This document shows, piece by piece, positions 21,847-58,376 of a stretch of DNA of 64,000 nt; the first letter of the stretch is position 1, and each line of letters starts with the position of its first letter. The stretch spans positions 62,001 through 126,000 of the forward strand of contig JAVEYB010000004.1 of assembly GCA_034003725.1 (NCBI GenBank). The letters are read 5' to 3'. Source of the stretch: Candidatus Zixiibacteriota bacterium (GTDB lineage: Bacteria > Zixibacteria > MSB-5A5 > GN15 > FEB-12). Below the pieces are notes generated by a model, which saw only the letters and a list, made by a program, of their open reading frames with translations, was not told the origin of the DNA and did not search any database. Position numbers and translations under genes: made by a program.

Positions 21847-22683
21847 TTACGATGCGGAACCGGATCCGCCTTCTGCGCCCAGTTTCTCCCGGCGGGCCGC
21901 CAGAGCGTCGGAGCGCACACTCATAGTCTTTTCACCGAAAAGAGCGAACCGGAGCCATCGGTATCCGAACTTCAGCAGCTCGACATCGTCTTCCTTGATC
22001 TTCTCTCTGGTCGTATCATCGACTTCGAACTTGCTGAAGAACGTGCTCCCGAACAGAAATCGGCGGAAGTTATCGATATCGTAACACACCGTATAGAACA
22101 TATCCATCTTCTCAGGCGAAAGCATTTTCCCTTCGCCAAAGTAACGATGGGTGGTAAGATGCTTGAACATCTCGCCGTTGCGGTCGTAATCGTCCACACC
22201 CTGTGCGCGCTTGTAGTCGGCGATGGTCCATTCCTTTTTGTCGTCGAATCCGCGGCATACGGATTCCTGCAGGAGGAAGTAGAATTCCTCCTCAATCGCT
22301 TCGGCCCCCTCGCCGGGTGAGGCTACGCCGAGCGGATACATGCGGCAGGCCCAGGGACGGTCGGCATAGACGGAACACCCTTCCGGGCGGTTGAAAGGAC
22401 AGGACTTGCGGTCATCGTCCTCCATGCGCAGCAGCACGACCGGGAATTTGGAGTCTTTGCTGAAGGGAGTAATCGTGTAACGGTCGAGGAAGTCATCGGA
22501 AGTGATACCGAGGTTGTTCTTCAGGCGGATGATGTCGTACGGGGTCAGGAAGATATTGACGTCACCGCAACAACGGTTGAAACAGGCAACACCGTGATGG
22601 CAGTCGAACCGAAAGACGCTGTCGGGTTTGAGTCGCGGGTATTCTTTCAGGACTTTTTCTTTGAAGGCATCGATTTCTTTCAT
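21847..22683 (-). CDS. YkgJ-family cysteine-cluster protein
   Basis: A 278-residue protein of the YkgJ (zinc/iron-chelating) family. Conserved cysteines are in FDCHHGVACFNRCCGDVNIFLTP-like order: C at about residues 28, 34, 38 and 39, then CPFNRPEGCSVYADRPWACRMYP near residues 95-115. The pattern suggests a bound metal or Fe-S cluster. The C-terminal half is longer than in minimal YkgJ proteins and is not recognised. It is 12 bases behind the small zinc-ribbon gene, so the two are likely cotranscribed, downstream of sat-aprBA but past a terminator. Confidence 0.85.
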   Translation of the reverse strand: MKEIDAFKEKVLKEYPRLKPDSVFRFDCHHGVACFNRCCGDVNIFLTPYDIIRLKNNLGITSDDFLDRYTITPFSKDSKFPVVLLRMEDDDRKSCPFNRPEGCSVYADRPWACRMYPLGVASPGEGAEAIEEEFYFLLQESVCRGFDDKKEWTIADYKRAQGVDDYDRNGEMFKHLTTHRYFGEGKMLSPEKMDMFYTVCYDIDNFRRFLFGSTFFSKFEVDDTTREKIKEDDVELLKFGYRWLRFALFGEKTMSVRSDALAARREKLGAEGGSGSAS

Positions 22684-22695
22684 GAGCCGCTCCTG

Positions 22696-22977
22696 TCAGT
22701 CGACGATACCGTCTTTGAGCGCGTCCCCGGACCATACCGGTAACGGTCCCGACTCGCCGTTGTCAGGGTTGAAGCGATATCGGTACGACACGTTCTGTTT
22801 GAATTGCGATCGCATCCACTCCCACCCCTCGATATAGTAGGCGCATTCGTCGTTGAAGCAGACGAACTGGGGGACGAATCCCCACGCCGATTCGAGCGAA
22901 CCGACCCAGCGCCGCATCTTCTTGCCGCAATACGGACAGACGTCGTCGCCCGCACCGCTGAATTTCTTTTCCGCCAT
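22696..22977 (-). CDS. Small zinc-ribbon protein
   Basis: A 93-residue protein with CPYCGKKM (about residues 13-16 for the cysteine pair) and a second pair in CFNDECAYY (about residues 39-44), a single four-cysteine zinc ribbon resembling the Ogr/Delta type. The rest contains an aromatic-rich segment, NVSYRYRFNP. ATG at 22977 is chosen because the protein becomes typical from there; a start at 23004 would add nine residues. It pairs with the YkgJ-type gene and follows aprA at a distance of about 200 bases. The function is unknown. Confidence 0.7.
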   Translation of the reverse strand: MAEKKFSGAGDDVCPYCGKKMRRWVGSLESAWGFVPQFVCFNDECAYYIEGWEWMRSQFKQNVSYRYRFNPDNGESGPLPVWSGDALKDGIVD

Positions 22978-23076
22978 CACCACTCTCTGACTCGATAGAT
23001 TCATCCAATCACGATACCGTTCCGTCGAGGCCACTTATACCCAGTCCGATTGCCCGGTACAAGCGGCCACAAAGAA

Positions 23077-23179: not shown

Positions 23180-25102
23180 CTATCCGCCGACCAGCTCGTG
23201 TTCCTGAGCCTTCGGATACAGATGGAGCATCGGCCGCTTGATCATTTCCCACTCGTTCTTTCCGGGGATCCAGCGGCAGTTGGCGAAGCAATGCCAATTG
23301 GCCTCGTCCATCGTCGGGAAGTCAGTGCGGCGGTAGTATCCCGGCCAGCGAGTCTCTTCGCGGAAGAGAATCGTGCGGGTGTGGGCCTCGGCCTGCCACA
23401 GGCGCTGGACGTTTTCCCAGCACCGGAGCAGTTCGTGCAGGTCCGCAGCCGCGAGGTTCGCAGAGTCTTCCTTCAAGAAGGCCAGCAGTTCGAGGGCACG
23501 GTCGAGACACGCCTTGTTGGTGGCGAACTGCGCGGAGACGCCTCCGACGTACTCGTCCATGATCTTCTGCAGGCGGAACATGAACATTTTCGGCTTGATG
23601 TAGTGCGGGTTGATTTCCGGGTCGGTCGTCTTGCCGGAGAATTCGGCAAAGACATCCAGCGGCTTGAACTGGGCTTCGATCATCTTGTCGACGGCGGCCG
23701 TGTCCATGGACGGCAGGGTGTTGTTCTCGACGACGAACTTCACCGCGGCCTTACCGCAGATGCGACCTTCGGCATGCGAGCCAGAGGAGAACTTGTGCGA
23801 GGAGGCACCGGAGGCGTCACCAGCACAGAACATTCCCTTGACGGTCGACATGTGGCTGTAACCCCAGAAATAGTCGTTTTTGGTCTGGCCGTTCTGGAGG
23901 TCTTCCGGACCGGAGATCCAGGCGCCGGAGGCGCCGGAGTGTGAACCGATGAAATACGGCTCAGCGGCAGCGATCTCAGACGAGCGCTTCTCGGGCTCGA
24001 CGTTGTTGGCGGCCCACAGAATCGCCTGCGAAATCGTCATATCGAGGAAGTCTTCCCAGGCCTCGGCTTCGAGCTCTTTCAGTTTCTTCTTGGCGGCCTT
24101 TTCGTCGCCGGCATCGGCAGCGATCTTCTGGATGGCTTCGGCCGTCCGCATGAAGATCGGGCCCTTGCCTTCCATCACATCGAGCATGCCAAGCCAGTTG
24201 CGCAGGTTGGCCGGAATCGGCTTGACCAAACCGTAGGGCTTCCAGCTCTCCAGCTCGTCCTTGCGCTCGATCATGTAGTTGCCGCCCATGGCGTTGGTCG
24301 CAGCCGACTTGAACAGCAGGAACCATGCGCCGACCGGACCGTAGGCATCCTTGAAGCGCACCGGGATGAACCGGACTTCCTGCGACGTCATTTCGGCGCC
24401 GGCGCGAAGCGTGAAGTAGGCCGATGAACCGGAGTTCCACGGCGGATACCACGCACGGCCGAGACCTTCGCCGGTGCTGCGCGGCTTGAAGACGTGCACG
24501 GCACCACCCATGGCGACGATCACCGACTTGGCGCGGAACACATACGCCTTGTTCTCACGGGTCGAAAAACCGATCGCACCGGCGATCCGGTCACCATCGA
24601 GAATCGGCTCGGTGATGAACACGCGTTCAAAGTACTCTCCGCCCGCTTCCTGGAGCGCGTTCTTGGCGGCTTCGGCGACGATCACCTTGTACGATTCGCC
24701 GTTGATCATCAGCTGCCAACGACCTTCGTGCACGTAGCGGCCTTCCGCGTCTTTCCAAATCGGCAGACCCCACTTCTCGAAGAGGTGGACGGTCGAGTCG
24801 ACGTGGCGGGCGATATTGGCCACCAGGTCTTCGCGGATAATACCCATGAGGTCCATGCGGACGTAGTCCACGTAGTCCTTCACGGTGTTTTTGCCTTCAT
24901 GCAGGCCGACGTACTGGTTGATGGCGGAGAGGCCCATGGCCACGGCTCCGGAGCGATCCATCGCCGCCTTGTCAACCAGCGTCACCTTGAGGCCGTTTTT
25001 CTTCGCCCAGTAGGCAGCTTCCACCGCTGCGCCACAGGCTGCCATGCCACCACCGAGGATCAGAAGGTCAGTGGTGACTTCCACTTTTTCGAATTTAGCC
25101 AT
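23180..25102 (-). CDS. aprA: Adenylylsulfate reductase alpha subunit AprA
   Basis: A 640-residue flavoprotein of the fumarate-reductase/succinate-dehydrogenase superfamily that reduces APS to sulfite and AMP. The FAD-binding site opens the protein (LLILGGGMAACGAAVEAA), and later family segments include FVPRSTGEGLGRAWYPP-like FKPRSTGEGLGRA, HSGASGAWISGPEDLQ and the AprA-typical AGDASGASSHKFSSGSH. Length is near the family norm. The start codon is preceded by GGAAGGAACG. It follows aprB after 21 bases. Presence with sat, qmo and reductive-type dsr genes indicates the reductive direction, though the protein alone does not fix it. Confidence 0.98.
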   Translation of the reverse strand: MAKFEKVEVTTDLLILGGGMAACGAAVEAAYWAKKNGLKVTLVDKAAMDRSGAVAMGLSAINQYVGLHEGKNTVKDYVDYVRMDLMGIIREDLVANIARHVDSTVHLFEKWGLPIWKDAEGRYVHEGRWQLMINGESYKVIVAEAAKNALQEAGGEYFERVFITEPILDGDRIAGAIGFSTRENKAYVFRAKSVIVAMGGAVHVFKPRSTGEGLGRAWYPPWNSGSSAYFTLRAGAEMTSQEVRFIPVRFKDAYGPVGAWFLLFKSAATNAMGGNYMIERKDELESWKPYGLVKPIPANLRNWLGMLDVMEGKGPIFMRTAEAIQKIAADAGDEKAAKKKLKELEAEAWEDFLDMTISQAILWAANNVEPEKRSSEIAAAEPYFIGSHSGASGAWISGPEDLQNGQTKNDYFWGYSHMSTVKGMFCAGDASGASSHKFSSGSHAEGRICGKAAVKFVVENNTLPSMDTAAVDKMIEAQFKPLDVFAEFSGKTTDPEINPHYIKPKMFMFRLQKIMDEYVGGVSAQFATNKACLDRALELLAFLKEDSANLAAADLHELLRCWENVQRLWQAEAHTRTILFREETRWPGYYRRTDFPTMDEANWHCFANCRWIPGKNEWEMIKRPMLHLYPKAQEHELVGG

Positions 25103-25123: not shown

Positions 25124-25561
25124 CTACTTGATCGTGTACACTTCTGACATGTTCAGGGCGGCCGGTTCCTGCGCGAGCACCTGGGAGTTCAGGTCGTTGT
25201 GCGGCGGGTATCCGCCAGCCGGCTGAGCCTGACCCTCCGGGGTAGTCCGGATCGGGAACTTAAAGCGTTTGAGCATGCCGTTGCGGAACTTGACCGTCCA
25301 CATGATGCTGTCGGTCGAGCGCATCGGCGTGACGTTAGCGCCCATGGGAACAAAGTCTGCGTACCCGCGGACTTCGATAGCCTGCACCGGGCAGATCTTC
25401 ACGCACGAGTAGCATTCCCAACACATCTCAGGCTCCCGGTTCCAGGCCTTCATGGCCTCCTTGTCGAGCACCATGAGGTCGTTGGGACAAATGTACTGGC
25501 ATGCGGTCTTGTCCAGTGCCTTGCACCCATCGCATTTCTCGGGGTTTACGTAGCTAGGCAT
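25124..25561 (-). CDS. aprB: Adenylylsulfate reductase beta subunit AprB
   Basis: A 145-residue ferredoxin-like subunit with two [4Fe-4S] clusters that passes electrons from the Qmo complex to AprA. Eight ligand cysteines are visible in EKCDGCKALDKTACQYICP and CWECYSCVKICP. The C-terminal tail (about residues 105-145, rich in proline) is the part that wraps AprA in known structures. The gene is in the usual order sat-aprB-aprA. Confidence 0.98.
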   Translation of the reverse strand: MPSYVNPEKCDGCKALDKTACQYICPNDLMVLDKEAMKAWNREPEMCWECYSCVKICPVQAIEVRGYADFVPMGANVTPMRSTDSIMWTVKFRNGMLKRFKFPIRTTPEGQAQPAGGYPPHNDLNSQVLAQEPAALNMSEVYTIK

Positions 25562-25612: not shown

Positions 25613-26839
25613 TTATTTCTTCCTGGCGTCGCCGGTCGCATGACCGTGCAGTTTCACTTCCACTTTCTCGTCTTCCTCAAGCTCGGCGTAATACTGACGC
25701 AGAATCTCGAGGACTTCCGGACGGCTGAACTCTGCCGGAACACTTCCGCCCTCGGACAGCGCTTTGCGCAGTGCCGTGCCGGAGAGGAAAAGGCGGTCTT
25801 CCTTGCCGTGCGGACAGGTCTTCATCGAAGACATCCCGCCGCACTTGAAGCACCAGAAGGTCCAGTCGATCGGCAGCATCTTGCACAAGAGGGCTCCGTC
25901 CCACAGCTTGAAGAAGATTTCCTGCGCATCGAACGGGCCATAATAGTCGCCGACGCCGGCGTGGTCGCGGCCGATGATCATGTGCGTGCAGCCGAAGTTC
26001 TGGCGGAAAACGGCGTGCAGGAGGCCCTCACGCGGGCCGGCATAGCGCATGTCGAGCGGGTATCCGCCGGTTACCACGCGATCCTTCACGAAGTAGTTCT
26101 CAACCAGGGTATTGATGCACTTAACGCGCACGTCCGCCGGGATGTCGCCGGGCTTCAGGCCGCCCACCAGCTGATGAATGTACAGACCGTCGGAGACTTC
26201 GACTGCGATCTTCGCAAGATACTCGTGCGACCGGTGCATCGGGTTGCGAAGCTGCAGGGCCGCGATGGACTTCCAGCCTTTCTGCTCAAAGATCTTGCGG
26301 CTCTCGGCAGGGCGCTGATAGATGCCCTTGAAGTGCTCGGGGAAATAGCTCTCGGAGAGCACCTTCACGGGGCCGGCGATGTTCCACGGCTTCTGGGCCA
26401 TGACCATCTTGACGCCGGGGTGCGCTTCATCGGTTGTCGAAAACACGTGCTTGCACTCGAAGGCCTTGTCGATCTGATAAGACTCGGTCACCTTCATCGT
26501 ACCCATGATCTCCTGCGTCTCGCCGGAGATGAGGGTGATCTCCGTTCCCGGGTCGATCTTGCTGTCGTGAGAGAGCGTGACCGGAATGGGCCAGAAGATG
26601 CCGTTGGTCATCTTCATGTGCTCGCAGACACCCTTCCAGTCGTCCTTGCCCATAAAGCCGTCGAGCGGAGTGAAGCCGCCGATTCCGAGCATGATGAGGT
26701 CGCCGGTTTCACGCGATGTCATCACCACTCTGGGTAGCTTCTCGGCGCGTTTTAACTCGGCTGCCCTCTCCGCTCCTTCGAGCAGCAGGATCTTCAGTTT
26801 GTCACTGCCATGCGGCGGGATCAGCATTGAAGTTGCCAT
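25613..26839 (-). CDS. sat: Sulfate adenylyltransferase (ATP sulfurylase)
   Basis: A 408-residue dissimilatory-type ATP sulfurylase, which activates sulfate with ATP to APS. The active-site motifs are [12 protein letters not shown] (about residue 198) and [17 protein letters not shown] (about residue 293). A metal-binding cluster of the type found in sulfate reducers, CFKCGGM...TCPHG, is near residue 330. The ATG at 26839 is chosen over an upstream in-frame codon because GGATAGGAAG lies 7 bases before it and the protein starts normally there. It has its own promoter with two flanking operator-like sites. Confidence 0.97.
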
Positions 26840-26898: not shown

Positions 26899-26916
26899 AT
26901 GTGACTTTTTTCACAA
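26899..26916. promoter_or_regulatory. Operator-like site, ATGTGA-CTTTTT-TCACAA
   Basis: Near-perfect inverted repeat in the sat leader, at about +53 to +70 from the predicted start of transcription. It matches the recurring window element and fits both the Rex and CRP/FNR (HcpR) consensus. Confidence 0.65.
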
Positions 26917-26974: not shown

Positions 26975-27003
26975 AATCTAAAGCCGGTCCCAGTGAGTGT
27001 CAA
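26975..27003 (-). promoter_or_regulatory. Probable sat-aprBA promoter
   Basis: On the minus strand TTGACA (26998-27003), a 17-base spacer and TAGATT (26975-26980). The leader would be about 130 bases. Flanked by two operator-like sites. Confidence 0.65.
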
Positions 27004-27008
27004 GCGAA

Positions 27009-27026
27009 AAGTACCTTTTTTCACAA
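27009..27026. promoter_or_regulatory. Operator-like half-site upstream of sat -35
   Basis: AAGTAC-CTTTTT-TCACAA. One half is perfect and the N6 is identical to that of the site in the sat leader; the other half is degenerate. It begins 6 bases upstream of the -35 hexamer, the same position as at qmoC and qmoA. Confidence 0.5.
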
Positions 27027-27411: not shown

Positions 27412-27429
27412 TTGTGAAAAAAATAACAA
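27412..27429. promoter_or_regulatory. Operator-like site, TTGTGA-AAAAAA-TAACAA
   Basis: Ends 6 bases before the -35 of the qmoC promoter, centred near -50. Five of six positions of the two arms are complementary. Confidence 0.65.
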
Positions 27430-27435
27430 TTCCCC

Positions 27436-27464
27436 TTGACAGCATAGATACGTCGGTCTATTAT
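27436..27464 (+). promoter_or_regulatory. Probable qmoC promoter
   Basis: TTGACA (27436-27441), 17-base spacer, TATTAT (27459-27464): a near-consensus sigma-70 promoter. The leader to the qmoC ATG is about 70 bases. Confidence 0.75.
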
Positions 27465-27538: not shown

Positions 27539-28714
27539 ATGGCTGCCCGACGATTGGTGGAACCGGATCTTGCTCTGATCCGGGAGGTAAAACGGGTCGG
27601 CGGGGACACCGTAAAACGCTGTTATCAGTGTGCGACCTGTTCGGTGGTCTGTTCCCTGTCACCGGCCGACCGCCCTTTTCCCCGCAAGGAGATGATTCTC
27701 GCGCAATGGGGACAGCGGGATCAGTTGGTGGCCGATCCCGATATCTGGTTATGTCATCAGTGTAACGACTGCACCCAGCGTTGCCCGCGTGGGGCCCGTC
27801 CGGGCGATGTGCTCGCGGCCGTTCGTTCGTATGTATACGAGTATTTTGCGTTTCCACGGTTCATGGGCAAGGCCCTGGCGACTCCGGCGGCGTTGAGCTG
27901 GCTGATCCTCACGCCAATCCTGTTGCTCGCTGCGGCGGTATTGGCTTTTGCACCGAGAACCCCTGATGGTGCTTTTGCGTTTCTGCACAGCACAGTAGTC
28001 GATTTTGACATTTTCCTGCCGCACAGTTCGGTGGACGCCCTGTTCGTATTCGGTAACATCCTCGTATTTCTCTTTGCGGCTATCGGCTTCAAACGGTTCT
28101 GGAATGGTTTGCAGGCGGGCAACCCGGGCGAGCGGATGTCATTCGTCTCGGGATTGGTCTTGACGGTCAAAGAGATTTTCGCCCACAGTCGGTTCCGTTC
28201 GTGCGACGCCAACCGCGCTCGCGCGACCGCTCACATGTTGTTGTTGTTCGGATTTGTCGGTGCGATGATCACTACCGGCTGTGTGTTTGTGTTTGTATTC
28301 ATTCCGCATTACCTGCATCTGCTGGGACTCGAGAGCATGAGTTCGTTTTTCGGACTGCCGATCGAATTGCCTCACCCTGTCAAGATCCTGGGGGCAGCAA
28401 GCGGGTTGGCTCTCGTAATCGGAGGGGCCATGGCCATATACCGCCGCTGGAGTGAGCGGGACCGGGTGGGCGCGAACGGCTATACCGACTACCTGTTCCT
28501 GTATGTCTTGTTCGTTGTCGGGTTAACCGGTATGCTTTCGTGGCTCGTTCGCTGGGCGGGGCTGGCGCTACCGGCATACACTGTTTACTTCATCCATATG
28601 GTCAGCGTGTTTTTCCTGCTGTGGTATATGCCGTACTCGAAATTCGCACATATGATTTATCGCACGCTCGCTCTCGTTTATGCCCGTCAGATCAATCGCC
28701 TTCCGAGGTCATGA
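27539..28714 (+). CDS. qmoC: Quinone-interacting oxidoreductase subunit QmoC (HdrC-HdrE fusion)
   Basis: A 391-residue membrane subunit. The N-terminal 100 residues are HdrC-like with two [4Fe-4S] motifs, CYQCATCSVVC and CHQCNDCTQRCP; the remainder has six predicted membrane helices with histidines suited to haem b, as in HdrE/NarI. In sulfate reducers QmoABC takes electrons from menaquinol for AprBA. The ATG has AAAGGAG 6 bases upstream. It is the only qmoC here and stands alone next to sat, while qmoAB lie 20 kb away on the other strand. A generic HdrCE-type subunit is the alternative, but the length, sat neighbour and shared operator favour QmoC. Confidence 0.88.
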   Translation: MAARRLVEPDLALIREVKRVGGDTVKRCYQCATCSVVCSLSPADRPFPRKEMILAQWGQRDQLVADPDIWLCHQCNDCTQRCPRGARPGDVLAAVRSYVYEYFAFPRFMGKALATPAALSWLILTPILLLAAAVLAFAPRTPDGAFAFLHSTVVDFDIFLPHSSVDALFVFGNILVFLFAAIGFKRFWNGLQAGNPGERMSFVSGLVLTVKEIFAHSRFRSCDANRARATAHMLLLFGFVGAMITTGCVFVFVFIPHYLHLLGLESMSSFFGLPIELPHPVKILGAASGLALVIGGAMAIYRRWSERDRVGANGYTDYLFLYVLFVVGLTGMLSWLVRWAGLALPAYTVYFIHMVSVFFLLWYMPYSKFAHMIYRTLALVYARQINRLPRS

Positions 28715-28780: not shown

Positions 28781-29068
28781 ATGAAGCTGTTCAATCGGCA
28801 CGTAGCGGCGCTGTCAGTGACGGCCCTGGCGGTCGCTGCAATCATCGTTAGTTCGAATTCGACTCATACCCGGTCACTGGAAAATCGAACACGGAGTTCA
28901 GTTGATCCAAGCATTGTCATATGCGCTGACAGTGTGCGTGCGGCGGATTCCCTCGGCGCCGGCCAGTCTGACTCTCTGTTAAGGCAACCCGGTGATTCGC
29001 TGGCTCCCCACGCTATCGGCACTGCCAGGGGCACGGTGTGTAACCCTGCCGCGGACGAGTGCCCATGA
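28781..29068 (+). CDS. Small exported protein of unknown function
   Basis: A 95-residue frame that starts MKLFNRHV and then has a hydrophobic stretch (about residues 8-24) like a signal peptide. The rest is serine/aspartate-rich with cysteines near residues 48, 87 and 94. GAGAGGG lies about 10 bases upstream of the ATG. It follows qmoC at 66 bases. No family is recognised, and the composition does not rule out a chance frame. Confidence 0.4.
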   Translation: MKLFNRHVAALSVTALAVAAIIVSSNSTHTRSLENRTRSSVDPSIVICADSVRAADSLGAGQSDSLLRQPGDSLAPHAIGTARGTVCNPAADECP

Positions 29069-45665: not shown

Positions 45666-45911
45666 TCAATCGTTGGCTGCACCCTCTCGATGCGGCAGTT
45701 CCAGGAAACTCCCGCCGAAATAGGTGTAGACACACCGACCGCTGTCCACGAGCTGCTTGATCGCAGCCTTGCAGACCTTCTTGTCAATATCATCGCCGTA
45801 GAGTTCCATCATGGCCTTGGTGAGGTCCATGGGTTTGAGCTTCTTCTGCCCCTGGGCCTCTTTGACCATGTTGAACATCGCGTCGGCGATCTCTTCGACT
45901 GTCTTTGCCAT
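45666..45911 (-). CDS. dsrD: DsrD
   Basis: An 81-residue winged-helix-like protein that begins MAKTVEEIADAMFNMVKEAQGQKKLKP and contains CVYTYFGGSFLELP, both typical of DsrD. DsrD is found with reductive-type DsrAB and is reported to stimulate DsrAB activity allosterically. It lies 11 bases after dsrB. Its presence supports the sulfite-reducing direction of this locus. Confidence 0.95.
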   Translation of the reverse strand: MAKTVEEIADAMFNMVKEAQGQKKLKPMDLTKAMMELYGDDIDKKVCKAAIKQLVDSGRCVYTYFGGSFLELPHREGAAND

Positions 45912-45922
45912 GGCATTACCCT

Positions 45923-46999
45923 CTAGAACGTTAGGTGGGTTGACCGCTTATAGGTCAGCCCGGCATGCTTGAAGTCGTCGATATGTTCTTTCTGGAACGG
46001 GATGTCGGCCATCCGGAAGAACTTCGGCCAGCCGATTCGCTGAATCCACTCGCCCATCCGTTCGTGGTTGCGGGCGTTCGCCGCCCACAGTTCCACCAGC
46101 CTTCGGACCGCATCGGTCACTTCCGGCCAGCGCGGCGGATTGTTGGAAATAAACGGAATAGCGAGTTTCGAGAACATCGGCTCGTGACGCGCGTTGGACA
46201 CCTTGCCTCCGACCCAAATCGACACGCCATCATTCAGCGGATCGTTCAACGGCATCGACGGACAGACGGTGTAGCAGTTGGCGCAGAACATGCAGTTGTC
46301 CTCGATCACTTCCACTGACTGGTTGCCATCGACGATCGCCGGTCGAATTGCGGCCGTCGGGCACGCGGCAACCACGTTCGGGATCTCACACTGCTTCTTG
46401 AGCATCTCGTGGTTTACTTTCGGAGGACGGCGGTGAATGCCCAGGATGGCGATATCCGAACAGTGTACCGCGCCGCACATGTTGAGACAGCACGCCAGTG
46501 CGATACGGAGCTTGCCCGGCAGCTTCTTCCGACCATCGAAGTACTCAATCAGGTCGTCCATCACGCACTTCACGATTCCCGACGCATCGGTGGCCGCCGA
46601 GTGACAGTGCACCCAGCCCTGTGTGTGTACGATCGAAGTGATCGCGTTCCCGATGCCACCAACCGGGTGACCGATCTTCTGCAGATCGGCGATAAGCGGG
46701 TCGATATTCGACGGGTCGGTCAACAGGAACTCGACATTGTGCCGGCTGGTGAATCGCAGATAGCCGCCGGTGTATTTGTCGGCCAAGTCCGCATAAATGC
46801 GGATTTTGTCGATACTGAGCAGACGGCCAGAGGACGCGCGAACCGTGTACAGCTTGTCGCCGGTTTCCGAGACGTGTACCATGACACCCGGCTTAAGGAT
46901 CTCATGATATTTCCACTTGCCGTAATTCTGCTTGATAATCGGCGGCAAGAACCTCTCATAGTGTGGCGGGCCGAAGTCCGTCCGTCTTTCTACTGCCAT
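45923..46999 (-). CDS. dsrB: Dissimilatory sulfite reductase beta subunit DsrB
   Basis: A 358-residue DsrB. The sirohaem/[4Fe-4S] binding residues lie in [18 protein letters not shown] (about residues 130-150) and [15 protein letters not shown] (about residues 168-182), and the inserted ferredoxin domain shows [12 protein letters not shown] near residue 235. With DsrA it reduces sulfite on sirohaem. It lies 54 bases after dsrA. Confidence 0.98.
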
Positions 47000-47053
47000 A
47001 TCAAACCTCTATGTTCCACTGGTTTTTCGTTTTCAGACTCCCTGGAGAATCGA

Positions 47054-48268
47054 TTACGACTCGGTCTCCTCTTCGTCGCCGCTGTCTTCCTCGAAGTATT
47101 CTTCATAGAAGACGTAGGGATTCTCACGGGGATGAGCAACCATCTCAGGGATGGGCTCGACACCGATCGCATCGAGGAAGTTCCCCAGACCGACACGCTG
47201 GATGAACTCGCCGACGCGTTCGCGGTTTTTGCCCTCTTCGCACCAGAGATCCCAGATGCGCTCGATGAGGTCCTTCAGCTCGTCATACGGCGGTTCCATT
47301 TTCATGAACGGAACGAGAACCGATGACAGCTGAGCGCCCTCCACGATCGGCGCTTTGGAACCGATCAGGATCATGCAGCCTCGATCCTTGCCGGGGCGCA
47401 GCGCCTTGGGCATTACGTTGATGCAGTGCATGCACTTGACGCAGTAGCTGTTTTCGATAGACAGCTCTTTGCCGTTCCATTCCATGCACTTGCCGGGGCA
47501 GTGCTCGACTACGTCTTGCTGGATATTCAGGCCCGTATCCACGTACTTTTTCACCTCGGCCTGATCCATCTGGATATCGTCGCGCCAGGTTCCGATGAAG
47601 GACATGTCGGCACGCGCTATTGAGGCCACGCAATCGTTTGGACACCCCGAAAATTTGAACTTGAACTTGTAGGGAAACGCCGGGCGATGCAGCTCATCCT
47701 GGAAATCCTGGGTGAGTGTGTAGCATGCCTTCATGGTGTCGTAGCAAGCCCACTCGCACCGCGCCATGCCGTTACAGCAGCTGGGGGTCCGAAGGTCCGA
47801 TCCCGAACCACCGATGTCGAAGTCAATCTTGGCCAGCTCTTCGAATATCGGCTCCAGTTGTTCGGTGCGGGTACCGAGGAACACGATGTCGCCGGTTGAA
47901 CCGTGCATGTTGGTCAATCCGGAACCATGGCGTTCCCAGATGTCGCACAGTTTGCGCAAGGCCTCGCTGGTGTAAAACCAGCCGGCCGGCTGGTTGATTC
48001 GCATCGTGTGAAAATGCGAGATTCCCGGAAACTTGTCGGGCAGGTCGGAATACCGACCGATCACGCCGCCGCCATAGCCCATGACGCCGACGATTCCGCC
48101 GTGTTTCCAGTGTCCGATTTTCTCGTGATACGACTGCTCCAGCTGCCCCAGAAGATCGTTGGCCATCGGAGAGCGCTTCGCCGCCATCTTGATTTCCTTG
48201 ACGAAACTCGGCCAGGCACCCTTTTCCAGTTCATCGAGCAACGGGGTCTTGTATGTTGTCTCCGCCAT
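47054..48268 (-). CDS. dsrA: Dissimilatory sulfite reductase alpha subunit DsrA
   Basis: A 404-residue DsrA. Cluster and sirohaem ligands are in [15 protein letters not shown] (about residues 168-180) and [17 protein letters not shown] (about residues 215-225); the ferredoxin domain shows [20 protein letters not shown] precedes the ATG. It is the first gene of a six-gene leftward run dsrA-B-D-N-L-C, behind a promoter with operator-like sites. Confidence 0.98.
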
Positions 48269-48343: not shown

Positions 48344-48361
48344 TCGTTATTTTTTTCACAA
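48344..48361. promoter_or_regulatory. Operator-like site, TCGTTA-TTTTTT-TCACAA
   Basis: Lies in the dsrA leader at about +68 to +85 from the predicted start of transcription. It keeps the same strong TTGTGA half as at the other sites (read on the minus strand). Confidence 0.55.
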
Positions 48362-48690: not shown

Positions 48691-48714
48691 ATACCGCGAA
48701 CCAGCTTCAGCCGG

Positions 48715-50937
48715 TTACATCCCTTTGTAGGGATTGAACCCGATCCCGCTTATCTCTTCCACAAAATCATCGAAGATATTAGGGAGCTTGTAGTATTCGT
48801 TAATGGCCAGTTCCACGATCTGCACGCGCTCCTCTTCCAGCACCAGCTGAGTCAACTTCTCACGGACGTTATCCATCCGGTAGTTGGCTAACTCCGACCC
48901 GCGGATAAAGTGGCACTGGTAGTCGTCGCCGCGCTTGCACCCGATCAGTATGATGCCGTCGAATCCCGACGCCAGCGCATCGGACACCCACACGGCGTTC
49001 ATCGATCCGAGGCAGCGCAGGGGGATAATCCTGACAAACGGCGAGTACTTCATCCGTTTGATCCCGGCCATGTCGACCGATGGGAGGGCGTCGTTTTCGC
49101 AGACAAACGCCAGGATTCGCGGCTTCTCGTCGAACTCGTCGGGCATGCTGATGGACTTGATCATCTTGGAAATCATGTTGACCGAGTAGTTCTTAAACGA
49201 AATGATTCGCTCCGGACAGGCGCCGAGGCAGACCCCGCACCGACGACAGCGGGTCGGATTCGGCAGCGGAGTCCCTTTCTCGTCCTCGTCCAACGCACCG
49301 AACGGACACTCTTCCGTGCAGCGCTTGCACTGCGTGCACTTGGTCATGAAGAAGTCGGGGAAGCTGCTATCACCGGCCCTCGGGTGGACCGCACTCCCCC
49401 GTGAGATCGCCTCGACCGCCTGGATGGCCTTCAGAGCCGCTCCGTAGGCGTCGGAGACCGACGCTGCAAAATCCATAGGGGAACGCACCGGGCCGGCCGC
49501 ATATATGCCCGTGCGACGGGTTTCGTACGGGAAGCAGATGAAGTGGCTGTCGGGGAAACCGTACTTGAGGGTCGGCAGGTCGGTGCCCTGGCGATACCCG
49601 AGGTTGATCAGATGGGCGCCTTTCTCGGCGCCGGCGGCGGCCTTCTTGCCGTCTTCGAGCAGAGCCTCATCGGCCGCATCCGCTGCAACAGGGATATCGT
49701 CGGGTTTGTTGGTTGTCACCATGCCGGTGGCAAGAACCACCATGTCCGCCTTTATGGTGATGTCTTCTCCGAGAAGGGTCTCAGACACATCAATGGCAAT
49801 CTGATCACCATCCGGCCTGACGCTGCCGATTTCTCCCTTGGTCAGGAACATACCGTCGTCGGTCTGCGCGTGCTGGTAGAAGAGCTCGTACTGCTGCGGT
49901 GAGCGGATGTCTTTGTAAATCACGTAAATCCTGGCATCCGGGTACTTTTCGCGCACGTACATCGCCTGCTTCAAGGAGACACGGCAGCAGACTGTCGAGC
50001 AGTAGGGCAGGTGGTCCTGATCGCGGGAGCCGGCGCACTGAATGAATGCGATTGAGCCAATCGGCTTGTTGTCGGACGGACGCTTCATCTCTCCCGACAG
50101 CGCCAACGCTTCCATCTTCACGTTGGTGATGATGTTCGGGCTGGAGCCGTAACCGAGATGGGATAGCTTTTCGGCCGGATATGGCGTCCACCCGGTCGCG
50201 ACGACCATCGCACCAACTTTGAACGACGGTGCGTCCGAGCCGTTTCTGAGCGTGACGTCGAATTTCCCCGGTGCGCCCTTGGCCGATTTTATCTGTGAGT
50301 TCGTATGAACCACAATGTTGTCGTGCGTCTCGACAGCCTTGACCAATTCAGGATACCCGGAGTCCTGCAGTTGCCGATACGGCGGTCGTTTCGGAAACAC
50401 TCTGGAAAATGACCGTGCCCAACCGCCCAGCTGCGGCTCCTTCTCGACCAGATGCACGCGGTAACCGGCGTCGGCCGCGGCTCGGGCCGCGGTCAATCCG
50501 GTCATACCGCCGCCGATGACGAGAATGTCCTTGCTGGTTTCCTCGATAAGAGGCACCGCCGGTTCAGAGGTCTGCACTTTGACGATACCCATGCGCAGGT
50601 AGTCCTCGACGAGCATCTGCGTGTCTTCGTCATTCGGCTCGTGCGCCCACGCGCCGTACTCGCGGATATTCGCGCGTTCGGTCAGTACCGAGTCGCCGAA
50701 TACGAAGAGCTCAGGAAATACGCGCTGGGAGCAGGCCGCGACAACGACCCGATTGAGCCCTTCAGTTTCGACATCTTTGCGGATGGTTTGTATTCCCTCG
50801 GCGCTGCACCACGCGTCATGCGTCTTGCAGACAGGCACGTGGTATTCGCCGGTCGCGACGGTAACCAGCTTGTCGACGTCGATCGATGACGCGATTTCGC
50901 AGCCCTTGCATATATAAACGCCAACCTTGGTGTCCAT
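48715..50937 (-). CDS. qmoB: QmoB, HdrA-like flavoprotein with MvhD-type domain
   Basis: A 740-residue soluble subunit of the Qmo complex. An N-terminal cysteine segment (YICKGCEIASSIDVDKL) precedes an HdrA-type FAD domain (VIGGGMTGLTAARAAADAG), two [4Fe-4S] motifs near residues 535-585 (CTQCKRCTEECPFGAL, CRRCGVCLGACPERI) and a C-terminal MvhD-like domain with cysteines in VCEND, RCLGS and IGCKRGDDYQC. This domain order is that of QmoB. It follows qmoA after 3 bases. No qmoC follows it. Confidence 0.95.
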   Translation of the reverse strand: MDTKVGVYICKGCEIASSIDVDKLVTVATGEYHVPVCKTHDAWCSAEGIQTIRKDVETEGLNRVVVAACSQRVFPELFVFGDSVLTERANIREYGAWAHEPNDEDTQMLVEDYLRMGIVKVQTSEPAVPLIEETSKDILVIGGGMTGLTAARAAADAGYRVHLVEKEPQLGGWARSFSRVFPKRPPYRQLQDSGYPELVKAVETHDNIVVHTNSQIKSAKGAPGKFDVTLRNGSDAPSFKVGAMVVATGWTPYPAEKLSHLGYGSSPNIITNVKMEALALSGEMKRPSDNKPIGSIAFIQCAGSRDQDHLPYCSTVCCRVSLKQAMYVREKYPDARIYVIYKDIRSPQQYELFYQHAQTDDGMFLTKGEIGSVRPDGDQIAIDVSETLLGEDITIKADMVVLATGMVTTNKPDDIPVAADAADEALLEDGKKAAAGAEKGAHLINLGYRQGTDLPTLKYGFPDSHFICFPYETRRTGIYAAGPVRSPMDFAASVSDAYGAALKAIQAVEAISRGSAVHPRAGDSSFPDFFMTKCTQCKRCTEECPFGALDEDEKGTPLPNPTRCRRCGVCLGACPERIISFKNYSVNMISKMIKSISMPDEFDEKPRILAFVCENDALPSVDMAGIKRMKYSPFVRIIPLRCLGSMNAVWVSDALASGFDGIILIGCKRGDDYQCHFIRGSELANYRMDNVREKLTQLVLEEERVQIVELAINEYYKLPNIFDDFVEEISGIGFNPYKGM

Positions 50938-50940
50938 GGC

Positions 50941-52218
50941 CTACCTCCTCGCTTCTGCCGTCATTGCCTTGAGCGCAGCACCGGTGGCGTCTTGAATCGA
51001 GCTTGCCACATCCATCGGCCTCAGCGCCGAGCCGGCGCCGATGATGCCGCAATCTCCGTCGGCAACCAGAAATCCGAACTCGTCGATCGGTACATCGAGC
51101 GGCGGCGGTTGATCAGCTGAATTCGGCACCATACCGATCGCGAGAACGGCCATATCAAGTTCGGCTTTGGTTATCTGTCCGGTCATCGTGTTCTCGGCCT
51201 CGAGAATCACGTTGCCGGTGGCCGGGTTTTCCACGATTTTGCCGACCTTTCCGCGGTGGAAATGCATTTTCGTGTCAGCCTGCCGGGCGACATAGAAGTC
51301 TTCATACCGTCCGGGTGACCGGACGTCTATGTAGAACATGTGGACGTCGGCGTCGGGATACCGCTCCCGCACGTAGGTCGCCTGTTTCATTGACGCCAGG
51401 CAACAGACTGCAGAGCAGTACGGCAGGTGGTTTTCGTCGCGAGACCCGGCGCATTGGACGAACCCAATACTCTTGATTTCTTTCTTGTCGGACGGCCGCA
51501 GGATCCTGCCTCCCGTGGGACCGGACTCCGACGCAAGTCGTTCCATGATCACGCTGGTAACGACGTTTGGAATACGTCCGAAGCCGAGATTGTCGATTTT
51601 CGTGGCGTCGTAAGGTCGCCACCCGGTTGCCCACACGATCGCCTTCACGGTGGCTGTGATCGTTCGCGGCTGCATTTCAAGATCGATCGCGCCGTGGGGA
51701 CACGCCTGCGCCACCTTCTTCATCCGCTCATCCGCTGCGTGTGCGGCATCGACTACATAGCGATGCGGGTAAGCCATCAGATGCGGCAGATAAATCGCCT
51801 TTGTCTTGTCGAGGCCGTAGTTCAGGTCGTTGTCCCGCTCGATGTCGCAGACTTTTTCGCATTCGCCGCACAGCGTGCACTTGTCGGTCACATATCGGGG
51901 GTTAAGACGAATGGTTACCTCGTAACGGCCGGGTTGTCCGGTCACGGACACAATCTCCGCGAGCGTCAGAACCCGAACCTTGTCTGTTACGCGAAGTCGC
52001 TTGAGATTGATCTCAATCCCGCACGATGGCGGACAAAGCTTCGGGAAGTACTGATTGGTCGCCAGAACACGCCCGCCGATCGTAGGCTTTCGTTCGATGA
52101 GAATGACGTTGCGACCGACCTCAGCGGTCTCAATCGCAGCCGTCATGCCGCTGATTCCGCCTCCGACGACCAGGGTGTTTGCTGATATTTCGTTCTGGAG
52201 AGGCTCAAATTCCGCCAT
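50941..52218 (-). CDS. qmoA: QmoA, HdrA-like flavoprotein
   Basis: A 425-residue HdrA-related subunit. It opens with an FAD site (NTLVVGGGISGMTAAIETAEVG), has one [4Fe-4S] motif (CTLCGECEKVCDIERDN, near residue 140) and the family segment GFVQCAGSRDENHLPYCSAVCC. ATG at 52218 follows AAGGAG at the right distance; two upstream in-frame ATGs lie within that site. With QmoB and QmoC it passes electrons from menaquinol to AprBA, possibly with electron confurcation. Confidence 0.95.
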   Translation of the reverse strand: MAEFEPLQNEISANTLVVGGGISGMTAAIETAEVGRNVILIERKPTIGGRVLATNQYFPKLCPPSCGIEINLKRLRVTDKVRVLTLAEIVSVTGQPGRYEVTIRLNPRYVTDKCTLCGECEKVCDIERDNDLNYGLDKTKAIYLPHLMAYPHRYVVDAAHAADERMKKVAQACPHGAIDLEMQPRTITATVKAIVWATGWRPYDATKIDNLGFGRIPNVVTSVIMERLASESGPTGGRILRPSDKKEIKSIGFVQCAGSRDENHLPYCSAVCCLASMKQATYVRERYPDADVHMFYIDVRSPGRYEDFYVARQADTKMHFHRGKVGKIVENPATGNVILEAENTMTGQITKAELDMAVLAIGMVPNSADQPPPLDVPIDEFGFLVADGDCGIIGAGSALRPMDVASSIQDATGAALKAMTAEARR

Positions 52219-52290
52219 ACCCATCTCCTTCATATTTGCCGTGAGCCATAATGCAAACCGACCGAATCGACAGGTTCGGGCAGGAGATGC

Positions 52291-52308
52291 TTGTGAAATT
52301 TATAACAA
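52291..52308. promoter_or_regulatory. Operator-like site, TTGTGA-AATTTA-TAACAA
   Basis: Lies in the qmoA leader at about +60 to +77. It has the same arms as the qmoC site although the N6 is different, which makes a chance A-tract match less likely. Confidence 0.65.
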
Positions 52309-52408: not shown

Positions 52409-52426
52409 ATGTGAAAAAAGTAACTA
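52409..52426. promoter_or_regulatory. Operator-like site, ATGTGA-AAAAAG-TAACTA
   Basis: Begins 7 bases upstream of the qmoA -35 hexamer, centred near -50, as at qmoC. Confidence 0.6.
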
Positions 52427-52652: not shown

Positions 52653-53492
52653 ATGGACGCAGCAGCATTCGCCACCGCCATCAAACGTCTGCGCGCGTTT
52701 CCGCCATCATGGCATCTGTTTACCGATAATACAGTGGACTTCGGCAGTGTTGGGGACGACGTCAGACTGGTTCAGGAATGGCTCTCTCTAAACTCATTGC
52801 CGGTCGAGATAGACGGACAATTCGGTCCTCAAACCCAGGCGGCCGCGTCCGAGTTCAGGAGGGGGCAGGATATGGACCCGCTCGGGCCGGTCGACTCCGG
52901 TGTTTTAATCCGACTGATCGAACCGATGCTCAAGGCACTCGCCCCACTGTCCGTACCGCCGGTCTCACTTTCCGAAGCGATCACCACGATTGCGGGCCAT
53001 CATCTTGAGGCTGCCGCCCGCGAGGTCGGCGGTGTCAACCGAGGTCCCTGGGTCCGACTCTATATGAATGGACAAGACGGCCGAACCCTCCCGTGGTGCG
53101 CCGGGTTTGTCTGCGCTGTCGTACAGCAGGCGTGTGGGGAGACAGGAAACCCGACTCCCATCCCCCTGTCAAGGTCATGCTCTCAGATGGCCGGTCGAGC
53201 ACGGCAGCTAAACATGCTCCAAACGATCGAAAGCGGCGTAAGGCAATCGTCTCTGCCCGGTTCGGTGTATCTCATCCGATCCGGAAAGAACCGATGGAGC
53301 CATTGCGGGATAATAACCGAGGTGCACTCCGATTCGATCGAAACGATAGAGGGGAATACAAACAGCGGCGGGTCGGCGGAAGGATACGCGGTGTGCCGAC
53401 GCACGCGTCGCCGCGCCGGAAACGACGTTATTTTGCTACCGCCACCGCGTCATTCAGGCTACGGACGCTCGGGCGAGCGCTGCTTCTGGTGA
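52653..53492 (+). CDS. Peptidoglycan-binding/CHAP-domain protein
   Basis: A 279-residue protein. Residues about 25-90 form a PG_binding_1-type domain (DDVRLVQEWLSLNSLPVEIDGQFGPQTQAAASEFR). Residues about 105-250 are a CHAP-type cysteine peptidase/amidase domain with the nucleophile in LPWCAGFVC, the histidine in WSHCGIITEV and the acidic end EGNTN. No signal peptide is evident, so export is unclear; a phage-like endolysin or a toxin-type hydrolase is possible. GGGAGGG precedes the ATG. Its last 34 bases overlap the convergent large gene. Confidence 0.85.
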   Translation: MDAAAFATAIKRLRAFPPSWHLFTDNTVDFGSVGDDVRLVQEWLSLNSLPVEIDGQFGPQTQAAASEFRRGQDMDPLGPVDSGVLIRLIEPMLKALAPLSVPPVSLSEAITTIAGHHLEAAAREVGGVNRGPWVRLYMNGQDGRTLPWCAGFVCAVVQQACGETGNPTPIPLSRSCSQMAGRARQLNMLQTIESGVRQSSLPGSVYLIRSGKNRWSHCGIITEVHSDSIETIEGNTNSGGSAEGYAVCRRTRRRAGNDVILLPPPRHSGYGRSGERCFW

Positions 53493-56400
53493 AAATCGGA
53501 CGTCCCGCCAAGCGGCAACTCCCTCGCGGCATCGGTCACGGCTCCAATCTTGACCGCATAGCTGGATTTGTCGCGAATGTCATCGTCAGTAACCAACTGG
53601 ATATCGAGCAGGCCGCCCCGGCGATACCCTGTCCGCAGAAAGTTGATCTCGTCGAGACAGAAACTCCACCCGCCGAGCCACTGCAACAGATCGGCACGCT
53701 GTTGCTCGGATCCCCGGATGTGCACGATCAGGTCGATATCGCTGCCCGGTCCGGCCGTGCCATTTTTGGTGCTGCCATAGACATAGAAACCAACCACGCC
53801 GAAGCGCTTCGGGTCAATCAGCCGGGCTATCCTTTCTGCCATATGCAGTCGCCAGTGCCAGTGTGATTCGGTCGCCATCGGTACCGCCGGGTCGTGCTCC
53901 GTGACGATGGGACGTTCCGACGTCGGCCGTGAAAACACCCCTACCGCTTCGTCGAGATCGGCATTCAGCAGAACGCGCAATACGCTTCCGTTGGTGGATT
54001 GCCCGACATCAATCACGCGAATGGTACCTTCAAGATGGGAGAACTCGGGAAGCAATTCGGCGAAGATGCTCCGTGACTGGGTCAGGAACTTCTCGTTGAA
54101 CACGTTCCCCGGTTCATCGGGATAGAGGGGCAAATAGCGGATTCTCGCCTCAACCAGGTCCTGGAAGAAGTGCGTTCCAAACGACAGGTCCGGTGTGTAG
54201 TTGCCCTGGGAGCGCGCTATCTCCACGAGAACAGCGGTGTTATTGATGTCTGAGTAGGTGACGTTTACGCCGAGCTTGATATCGCCACGGCTGCCCCAGC
54301 GTCCCGGTCCCATCAAGATGAACTGCCGTTTGGGCAGGATCTTATTCAGACGGGAAACTGCCCTGCCGACGGCGTTGAGGTGATCGCGGTCGGGTAATCG
54401 GCTATACTGGCCGGGATCCACGTACACAATATGGGAGATATCGGGCACAACGCCGTTGGAGACGAAACGATTCGCCGTAAACAACACGCGATCCCGGGGC
54501 AAGTCACGCGGAATGGCGACCGGCTGGCTGTTATCGGAATGACTTTGCGGCCGGCACTGCAGGAGATACAGATCTTTGCCATCGTGCGCGAACTCGATAT
54601 CGACCGGGGACCCCGTCCGCTCCTCGAGTACTTTGAGGATTGCATGCATTTGCCGCACGAACTGCTGATTCTCCATCAGCCCCTCGAAGGTCACTATCAG
54701 GTGTTCCCGGCCGTACGCCGTCTCGGCGAGCGACATTCGCCGCACACCGCCATCACGCAAAATCGAGATGATTTGTGAGACACCGGGAATGGTGTCTCCC
54801 CACTCGGCGAACAGGCTGGCCGCATCAACCGTCTCGAAAGAATTCGTCTCGAGATTAATAACGTCCACCCAGCGCGGAGAGTAGCGGACCATCTCGTCGA
54901 CCGATACATTCACGCGGAGCCCGGGCTGGCCGGGTGAAAACATGATCGGGTAGTCATTGCTGAGCCTGTCAACCGCCCGGGTGCCCAGTCCGGGAACCAG
55001 CCTGATAAGCCCGTCCTCCCGCTGGATCCGTGGCGACCACCTGAATTCATTTCGGCTGAATGCCACCCCGGCAAACGACGGCAGGAAGTACTTTCCGACC
55101 CGAGTACCGACAACCTCCTGGATCATGATGCCCATTTCTTCGGCGAAATCCAGCAGACCCCGTTCGCATCGATACTCAATCGGATCGGGACCAAACATCG
55201 AAGCATAGACTTCGGCGATAGCATCCTGCAACGCCTCCAGACGCTGTTGTTTGGTTCCCTGATTGGCCAGAAACAAGCTCTTGTATTTGCCGGAGAAGGC
55301 CGCCCCGACACGATCTTCGAGTACCGAGGAACTCCTCACGATAAGAGGTCTTTCGCCGAAATCGTCAAGGGCGACCGACAGCCCCTTGGTCAACTCCGGG
55401 GGAAAACGGGAGTTTTTGCACGTATGGACGATATAGGGATACTCAAATCGGATCTGCGAAATCTCCTTGTACTTTTGTTCTACGATTTCATCCAGGTTGT
55501 TGTAATGCATGAAATTCAGTTGCATGTCGGAGGTGATGTGCCAGGTTTTGGGGATTTTGATCCGCCCCAGTTCGGGCCGATGCGACGCTTCCTGCCTCAA
55601 AATTTGCGCCGCCAGGTACAGCCCCGCGCTCTTGCCGCCCAACCGACCATGGCTCTCCGACGAAAAGATGATGTACTGGAGTAGTTCGTAAAAATCACGA
55701 ATGCCGAGGTATTCTTTTGCGATACTGATATAATTAAGCTGGTCTGAGAGGAATCGACGAATCAGCGACACGCGCACACCCACCCGTGAAGGCCGCGACA
55801 ACTCGTCTTCCTGGCTCGAGATATGATGGTACCGTCGAATAGCGTCGGCCACCTCGGGCAGCGACAGGTTGCGCTCCACCGCCCTCACCAGAAAGCCGAG
55901 TTTCTCCTCCTGCATCCACTTCTGGATGCGAGCGAGAATCTCAAGATCATTGAGATGTTTTGAGGCGAGCCGGAACGTCGCCTCCCCGAGTTCCATGGGG
56001 AAGTGATATGAGCGCTTCTGGTACGGTCGGTTGGAGTCGACCATCAAGTCTTCTGCGTCGCCCTTGCGATAAAGGTCTGACTTCTGGAGTAGCTCTTCAG
56101 CCTCTTTGTTGCCGCTCCAGCACAGCTGGTTCAGCATCTTGTGTGATATGCGGGTGTACAGATTTTTGTCGGTGCGCGCCAGCATGTCGAGTATAATCCG
56201 CCAGTCGCCCGGCTCGCGCCCCTGACGGTCCCGTCGGGCAACTTCCCAGTCCTGCAGCACCTGGCGCATTCGGGAGTGAGAAACGAAATTGCCCAGCAGA
56301 TCGGCGATCGTCTTGATGAGCCTGGCCTCGTCCTTCAGAAACGGACCATCATCGGCCGCGGGCATCTGCTCGGTGTAGTACACGGCAATCCGACCCACAA

Positions 56401-58196: not shown

Positions 58197-58358
58197 CAAA
58201 GTACCCCTTAGGTTGTGACATCAGATATGATCGTTCACGTGTTTCGGATCTTATACGAACGAAGGCTGCAGCCTAAATCGGGCGACAGTATTCAGTCTTC
58301 TGGCCGAAACGCTCCGACCAATCGACTTTCCGAAGCCGAAATATGCGCCGCCTCCCAT

Positions 58359-58376
58359 TTGTTACAAAATTCACAA
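58359..58376. promoter_or_regulatory. Operator-like site, TTGTTA-CAAAAT-TCACAA
   Basis: Lies across about +1 to +17 of the predicted gdhA transcript, a position that fits repression. Arms match the qmoC and qmoA sites exactly. Confidence 0.6.

Follow-up and report, generated by a model that had tools for sequence, protein, structure and literature searches.

The qmoC gene of most sulfate-reducing Zixibacteria is detached from qmoAB and divergent from sat-aprBA, and the separate units share an operator that is most likely a Rex site

The window analyzed here, a stretch of 64,000 nucleotides, belongs to a genome of the candidate phylum Zixibacteria (G000; 3.73 Mb in 35 contigs, 99.5% complete), whose named relatives are found under Candidatus Zixiibacteriota or candidate division GN15. 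On the minus strand, the sulfate adenylyltransferase gene sat (25613–26836, with its ATG at about 26836; 489 bits for NF003166 and 368 bits for TIGR00339, both above the cut-off) is followed leftward by aprB (25124–25561, recognized by position and similarity, and conserved beside aprA) and aprA (23180–25102; 874 bits for TIGR02061, against a cut-off of 642). The run continues into two conserved neighbors, which encode a small zinc-finger protein (22696–23034; PF04606) and a CxxCxxCC metal-chelating, YkgJ-like protein (21847–22683; PF03692). These two genes lie directly 3' of aprA in many relatives as well as in the window, and in the Ignavibacteria and Kapabacteria, they separate aprA from qmoC; their products possibly have a role in the maturation of Apr. 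In the opposite direction, qmoC (27539–28714, plus strand) encodes the HdrC-HdrE-type membrane subunit of Qmo, a protein of 391 amino acids identified through the NF038018 model, phylogenetic trees, and conserved cysteines and histidines. Directly 3' of it is a rightward open reading frame of 95 amino acids (28781–29068), which has a possible signal peptide and no match in Pfam.

To the right of qmoC, the genes, which were named partly by inspection here as on the left, read leftward once more, with hemB, cobA-hemD, hemC, sirC, hemA, and a rhodanese-type disulfide reductase, followed by dsrP-O-J-K-M, a dsrT-like gene, dsrC, dsrL, dsrN, and the genes dsrD, dsrB, and dsrA (dsrA-dsrB-dsrD, 45666–48268, minus strand, by inspection and synteny). 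Beyond these lie qmoB (48715–50937, minus strand), with HdrA-like and MvhD/FlpD parts (PF02662 and HdrA models), and, directly before it, the HdrA-like flavoprotein gene qmoA (50941–52233, or 52218 from an inner ATG). Further to the right, a protein of 1072 amino acids (53459–56677) combines a PEP/pyruvate-dikinase ATP-binding domain with a nucleotidyltransferase domain. The preliminary description of this DNA had pointed out that qmoC is detached from qmoAB, that it diverges from sat-aprBA across a region of about 0.7 kb, and that qmoAB ends in a terminator, and all three points hold: the leftward qmoAB pair is 20 kb from qmoC, approximately 700 bp separate the divergent sat and qmoC starts, and a GC-rich, terminator-like stem of 11 pairs (8 of them GC) is found just past qmoB, at 48692–48666 of the minus strand. 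Given this gene order, qmoC and qmoAB are located near the opposite ends of a single sulfate island of 30 kb.

Far from being peculiar to one odd genome, the arrangement has been conserved across most of the phylum. The survey covered 132 Zixibacteria genomes, of which 46 contain a QmoC above the cut-off, 53 a QmoB, and 49 an AprA. QmoB is present in 45 of the 46 QmoC genomes (the exception being G079), and QmoC in 45 of the 53 QmoB genomes, while 78 of the 132 have neither; the eight genomes that have QmoB without a full QmoC are mostly fragmented. There are 56 qmoC loci, that is, 46 main loci and 10 second copies. The main qmoC is divergent from sat-aprBA in 39 of the 46 genomes, distributed over seven family-level groups, with aprBA on the same contig at 2.3–2.7 kb in 34 of these, and with sat near a contig end in the other five (G002, G006, G008, G029, and G058). 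Elsewhere, qmoC is near qmoB on the same strand in four genomes (G091, G092, G128, and, at 3.7 kb, G093) and away from both aprBA and qmoB in two (G119 and G121), with G098 not being assignable. Misassembly or chance was rejected as a cause, given the recurrence of the divergent pair in so many genomes, three of which consist of a single contig (G030, G114, and G115).

The distance to qmoAB varies widely. Of the divergent genomes, 15 have qmoB on the contig of qmoC, at 18–46 kb and on the opposite strand, whereas qmoB lies 1.30 and 0.92 Mb from qmoC in G030 and G114, respectively, both of them single-contig assemblies, and approximately 0.93 Mb from it in the named genome of locus L098. In G115, the distance is 3.6 Mb when the contig is read as linear, and would be about 0.17 Mb on a circular molecule. 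As qmoC stays with sat even where qmoAB is some 0.9–1.3 Mb away, the sat/qmoC pair is the unit that is retained. A second association is that of qmoAB with dsrA, which lies 3' of it on the same strand, within approximately 3.5 kb and usually within 0.6 kb, in all 20 of the stretches fetched around qmoB in the split genomes.

This distribution bears on one of the competing explanations, in which the split is the product of neutral gene shuffling inside the 30-kb island, and a functional account is unneeded. The location of qmoC and qmoAB toward opposite ends of a single island in the window, their separation by only tens of kilobases in the 15 genomes, and the existence of several other gene orders in the phylum would all fit such shuffling. 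Persistence of the sat/qmoC pair across the seven family-level groups, even where qmoAB has moved away, and the fixed distance of an operator (see below) from both the start and the promoter of qmoC argue against it, and neutral shuffling is considered fairly unlikely.

The ten second qmoC copies belong to contiguous qmo sets found away from aprA, in which qmoC lies directly behind a second qmoB (G019 C5, G030 C1:1164262, G037 C34, G040 C83, G043 C35, G054 C201, G091 C156, G092 C124, G111 C62, and G123 C24). In trees that include four of these sets, their QmoB groups with a sequence from the Planctomycetota and their QmoC with one from the Acidobacteriota. In the single-contig genome G030, only the end of qmoA is matched before the qmoB of a further locus (L185; C1:636500–648500), which represents either a frameshift or a broken gene.

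The detachment also extends beyond the phylum. The QmoC of the window falls within a clade of 54 rows (SH-aLRT 100, and 100/100 in a more careful tree), formed by the Zixibacteria, LCP-89, Electryoneota, Ignavibacteria/Kapabacteria, Calditrichota, and one MAG labeled as Myxococcota. In the Ignavibacteria, Kapabacteria, and Electryoneota, sat-aprBA is followed by one or two small genes and then by qmoC, with qmoAB elsewhere; in the genomes of loci L104 and L108, and in G121, qmoAB precedes sat and qmoC stands alone, while LCP-89 and the Zixibacteria group f9 have a single qmoC-qmoA-qmoB-sat-aprB-aprA run. The named loci compared were the 80 best among at least 568 relatives, and the nearest relatives are therefore over-represented in the following counts. 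Within the lineage of the window's QmoC, qmoC touches qmoAB in 3 of the 25 named loci and is clearly apart from it in 16, with five of the remaining six having no qmoAB on the readable side, and one being undecidable. Outside this lineage, by contrast, qmoC touches qmoAB in 50 of the 55 loci, and the other five are cut short, which bears out the expectation of the preliminary description that qmoABC is normally contiguous. In its various forms, then, detachment is a trait of the whole QmoC lineage, including the relatives in the Ignavibacteria, Kapabacteria, Electryoneota, and Calditrichota.

The separate units of the window share an operator-like sequence. Scored with a matrix built only from sites outside the genus of the window, the qmoC operator, TTGTGAAAAAAATAACAA (27412–27429, plus strand), reaches 27.8 bits, and the predicted qmoC promoter, TTGACA-17-TATTAT (27436–27464, plus strand; 11 of 12 matches), has its –35 beginning 6 bp past the operator. 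On the minus strand, the sat operator (26899–26916; 25.2 bits) lies downstream of the predicted sat promoter, TTGACA-17-TAGATT (26975–27003; 10 of 12 matches), and a weaker second site (27009–27026; less than 15 bits with the same matrix) precedes the predicted –35 by 5 bp. The gene qmoA has two operators, TTGTGAAATTTATAACAA (52291–52308; 28.5 bits) and a second one at 52409–52426 (21.1 bits). An operator common to the sat, qmoC, and qmoA promoters had been proposed from the window, and is conserved; the operator of dsrA (48344–48361, minus strand; 22.8 bits) is an addition. The matrix finds six sites of at least 20 bits in the 64 kb, and none in 40 simulated windows; these are the sites before sat, qmoC, dsrA, and qmoA (two), and one before a dehydrogenase gene. 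This last site, a strong Rex-like sequence at 58359–58376, is upstream of a Glu/Leu/Phe/Val dehydrogenase (56910–58199).

The operator is conserved in the phylum. With a matrix made from five sites of the window, and counting only sites equalled by at most 1 of 30 shuffles, it was found upstream of sat in 27/27 regions, of qmoC in 27/32, of qmoA in 20/27, and of dsrA in 18/24, against 3/27 for aprB and 1/29 for qmoB, the internal-gene controls. A scan for half-sites, which required 10 of 12 matches and left the six central positions unconstrained, recovered sites in 75 of 98 regions, compared with 1–7 in ten shuffled sets. The site lies at about –111 to –133 from qmoC in most relatives, and ends 5–7 bp before the TTGACA in 16 of 26 qmoC promoters; it is located between –35 and –10 of sat in 13 of 26 genomes, ends 7 bp before the –35 of dsrA in 8 of 24, and overlaps the best predicted –35 of qmoA in 6 of 22, although neither these counts nor those of the operators are independent, given that the genomes share descent. 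Outside the phylum, the Zixibacteria matrix recovers one site before sat in LCP-89 (19.5 bits), and none of at least 18 bits at the sat, qmoC, and qmoA promoters of the Ignavibacteria, Kapabacteria, Electryoneota, and Calditrichota loci, where the DNA scanned upstream of qmoA was approximately 200 bp each in most of L256–L265. The predicted co-regulation is therefore supported for the Zixibacteria only.

The Rex operator consensus is an 18-bp inverted repeat, TTGTGAA-N4-TTCACAA, and that of HcpR/CRP is TGTGA-N6-TCACA, in which positions 7 and 12 are unconstrained. By both matrix and half-site scans, the operators match the Rex consensus or come close to it, with an asymmetric fit at sat and qmoC, where the right half is often RTAACAA. 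Position 7 is an A in 73 of 75 sites, even though it was left free in the scan, which argues for Rex, since this base is a trait of the TTGTGAA half-site that CRP/HcpR does not require. The window genome has a single rex gene, with the site at its own promoter, and a match to rex is found in 118 of the 132 genomes of the phylum; of the 20 best-scoring rex loci, which are not a random sample, 17 carry the site, mostly within 100 bp of rex, as against 0 of 8 CRP-HTH loci. The pattern WTGTGAANNNNRTMACWW has 14 matches in the window genome, and its reversed control none, with matches outside the island preceding a ferritin-alr-rex run, hemA, nuoA-D, thiolase-hbd, and a group 3b NAD(P)-linked hydrogenase (all named by eye). 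The shared operator, for which the preliminary description had named no regulator, is thus most likely a site for Rex, a sensor of NADH/NAD+, as judged from these sequence patterns.

Four of the five HdrC-like loci that were meant as controls also carry the site, and may be targets of Rex themselves. One of these is in the window genome (L213; G000 C20:7200–13800), and has an Hdr-like cluster, with HdrA-like and HdrC-like genes, near the Rex-like site.

The operator might instead belong to a regulator of the HcpR kind, of the CRP/FNR family, in which case the units would sense nitric oxide or oxygen, rather than NADH. The half-sites TTGTGA-N6-TCACAA suit CRP/HcpR equally, one CRP-type HTH protein exceeds the cut-off in the window genome, and the qmoC site, just before the –35, would suit an activator. 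In passages of two papers, HcpR-type regulators of Desulfovibrio are reported or predicted to control sat and aprBA (apsBA), through sites near-identical to those of Rex (PMC1274295, PMC5701242), and one paper calls the Rex and HcpR1 sites identical. Passages of other papers describe the repression of sat by Rex in D. vulgaris (PMC7531388) and, crediting Ravcheev 2012, the co-regulation of sulfate genes by Rex in Desulfovibrio (PMC4215793). The near-constant A at position 7, the presence of the site at rex and its absence from the eight CRP-HTH loci, and the location of the sat site inside the promoter in half of the genomes, which is the position of a repressor, make an HcpR-type owner unlikely.

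The protein itself has the features of an ordinary QmoC, with an HdrC-like two-cluster part at the N terminus and a NarI/HdrE-like membrane part at the C terminus, and its top matches in the PDB are HdrC chains. The cysteines 28/31/34/38 and 72/75/78/82, which form two CxxCxxCxxxC [4Fe-4S] motifs, are identical in all 113 aligned QmoC rows, as are His216, His232, His353, and His371, the four candidate ligands of haem b in the membrane part. The adjacency to qmoAB that is usual for qmoC, without being a defining trait, is absent in the window, although QmoA and QmoB are encoded in the same genome (48715–52233). A search of the whole genome, which is 99.5% complete, recovered no second QmoC above the profile cut-off, so that no better candidate competes with the one noted at first; a hit at C20:10796 was rejected as an HdrC-like partial match of 69 bits.

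Some pathway genes may have histories of their own. The QmoC tree places the window genus with other Zixibacteria, while the QmoC of four genomes of group f4 (G042, G045, G050, and G052) groups with the more distant f9 type (support 99/86), and their QmoB stays with the f4 relatives. An exchange of QmoC in these four genomes is a suggestion only, given that the AU test, for which the f4 group was named after inspection of the tree, does not reject a single Zixibacteria QmoC clade (p 0.051). The AprA sequences (23180–25102 in the window, and relatives) form two well-separated lineages in the phylum, mixed across families, which also suggests gene exchange. Taken together, these patterns hint that pathway genes may be exchanged singly. 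The distances of QmoC gave a partial correlation of 0.34 with QmoB, against 0.06 with AprA (30 genomes), although AprA is a poor background because of its two lineages; with DsrA added as a further background (21 genomes, in which the QmoA row was probably spoiled by the partial hit of L185 in G030), QmoC tracks DsrA at r 0.53–0.55 and QmoB at 0.42–0.51. Co-evolution was thus dropped as evidence of partnership between QmoC and QmoB, since DsrA correlates as well. A tentative and rather doubtful extension of these patterns is that QmoC is an independently kept and replaceable module, with its gene placed beside sat-aprBA or alone rather than with qmoAB, QmoC by itself being replaced by a distant type in one group of Zixibacteria that retained its QmoAB, and the pieces being kept in step by Rex operators.

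The detached QmoC might also have ceased to serve QmoAB, and act directly with AprBA or another partner, with QmoAB being fed from elsewhere. The three genomes in which qmoC accompanies sat-aprBA with qmoAB about a megabase away, the discordant grouping of the four f4 genomes, and the eight genomes with QmoB and no full QmoC could be read in this way. All the cofactor ligands are retained, however, QmoB accompanies QmoC in all but one genome, qmoA and qmoC have the operator in common, and a contiguous qmoCAB persists in the same lineage (L102 and L107), all of which render such an uncoupling very improbable. The idea that the window protein is some other HdrC/HdrE fusion, such as a TcuB or a DsrMK-type protein, draws on weak matches to the TcuB and NarI models and can be dismissed, given a score of 410 bits (410.2) for NCBIfam NF038018 (cut-off 300; model positions 1–360 of 360), against 77 bits for TcuB (cut-off 524), the next family, and its nesting, in trees without an HdrE or DsrM outgroup, among QmoC genes that adjoin qmoAB; the protein is a genuine QmoC by these measures, as had been proposed.

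The reading preferred here, with good confidence, is that of an ordinary QmoABC, encoded in separate units controlled by Rex, for which the window gene provides the genuine and only QmoC. In the membrane, QmoC would associate with QmoA and QmoB, and electrons would pass from menaquinol through the two haems b and the two [4Fe-4S] clusters of QmoC to QmoAB, and then to AprBA. The qmo genes would once have been contiguous, and would have been split into separate transcription units in the QmoC lineage of the window, with selection keeping the back-to-back pair of sat-aprBA and qmoC, and with qmoAB preceding dsrAB. At low NADH/NAD+, Rex would occupy the sat, qmoC, qmoA, and dsrA operators and keep all of the units off, and as NADH rises, it would leave, allowing the four units to be made together. 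Having the same operator at every promoter is proposed to let the units be expressed in step, and presumably in balance. Some observations weigh against this reading: the qmoC operator, like one of the two sat operators of the window genus, is located just upstream of the –35, which is unusual for a repressor, and the eight genomes with QmoB, most of them fragmented, have no full QmoC.

A detached qmoC is not new as such, given the precedent of Ca. Thermonerobacter thiotrophicus, of the Bacteroidetes/Chlorobi group, which is described in passages of a 2019 paper on three MAGs from hot springs (PMC6338057). In these MAGs, as in the window, qmoC is linked to sat-aprBA, with qmoA and qmoB elsewhere, and two small conserved genes, termed hypothetical there, follow aprA; the transcripts of sat-aprAB-qmoC-dsr and of qmoAB were plotted over the day, and the sulfate genes peak at night. 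In Ca. Thermonerobacter, however, qmoC closes a sat-aprBA-hyp-hyp-qmoC run that leads into dsrAB, whereas in the window, it is divergent from sat, with a predicted promoter and operator of its own, and it is qmoAB that leads into dsrAB. The green sulfur bacteria, Nitrospirota, and many Desulfobacterota have the same proteins and pathway in a sat-aprBA-qmoABC run, which differs from the window in having qmoC beside qmoAB, as in the 50 of 55 loci sampled outside the lineage. The QmoAB-HdrBC of Gram-positive sulfate reducers resembles the window in having qmoAB with no qmoC following, but has no QmoC according to passages of the source, while the window genome encodes a full QmoC elsewhere (PMC10504309). 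In D. vulgaris, as in the window, a Rex-type operator precedes sat and sulfate-reduction genes (passages of PMC7531388 and PMC4215793); the window differs in its separate predicted operators over sat, qmoC, qmoA, and dsrA. In the passages of the literature consulted, figures and most subscription papers aside, neither the divergent arrangement of sat and qmoC nor a Rex site before qmoC was found to be described.

The function of these genes is most likely ordinary, and the surprise is organizational: throughout a lineage, one subunit gene has become uncoupled from its partners, and a shared redox operator likely serves as the glue. The genes for the subunits of a complex would normally be expected to lie together, and an entire QmoC lineage departs from this rule, with a candidate cure for the separation, the redox operator at each piece, being visible in the sequence. 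Annotation based on synteny would score these genomes as Qmo-incomplete. If QmoC really is exchanged alone, these bacteria would also provide a natural test of the specificity of the contact between QmoC and QmoAB.
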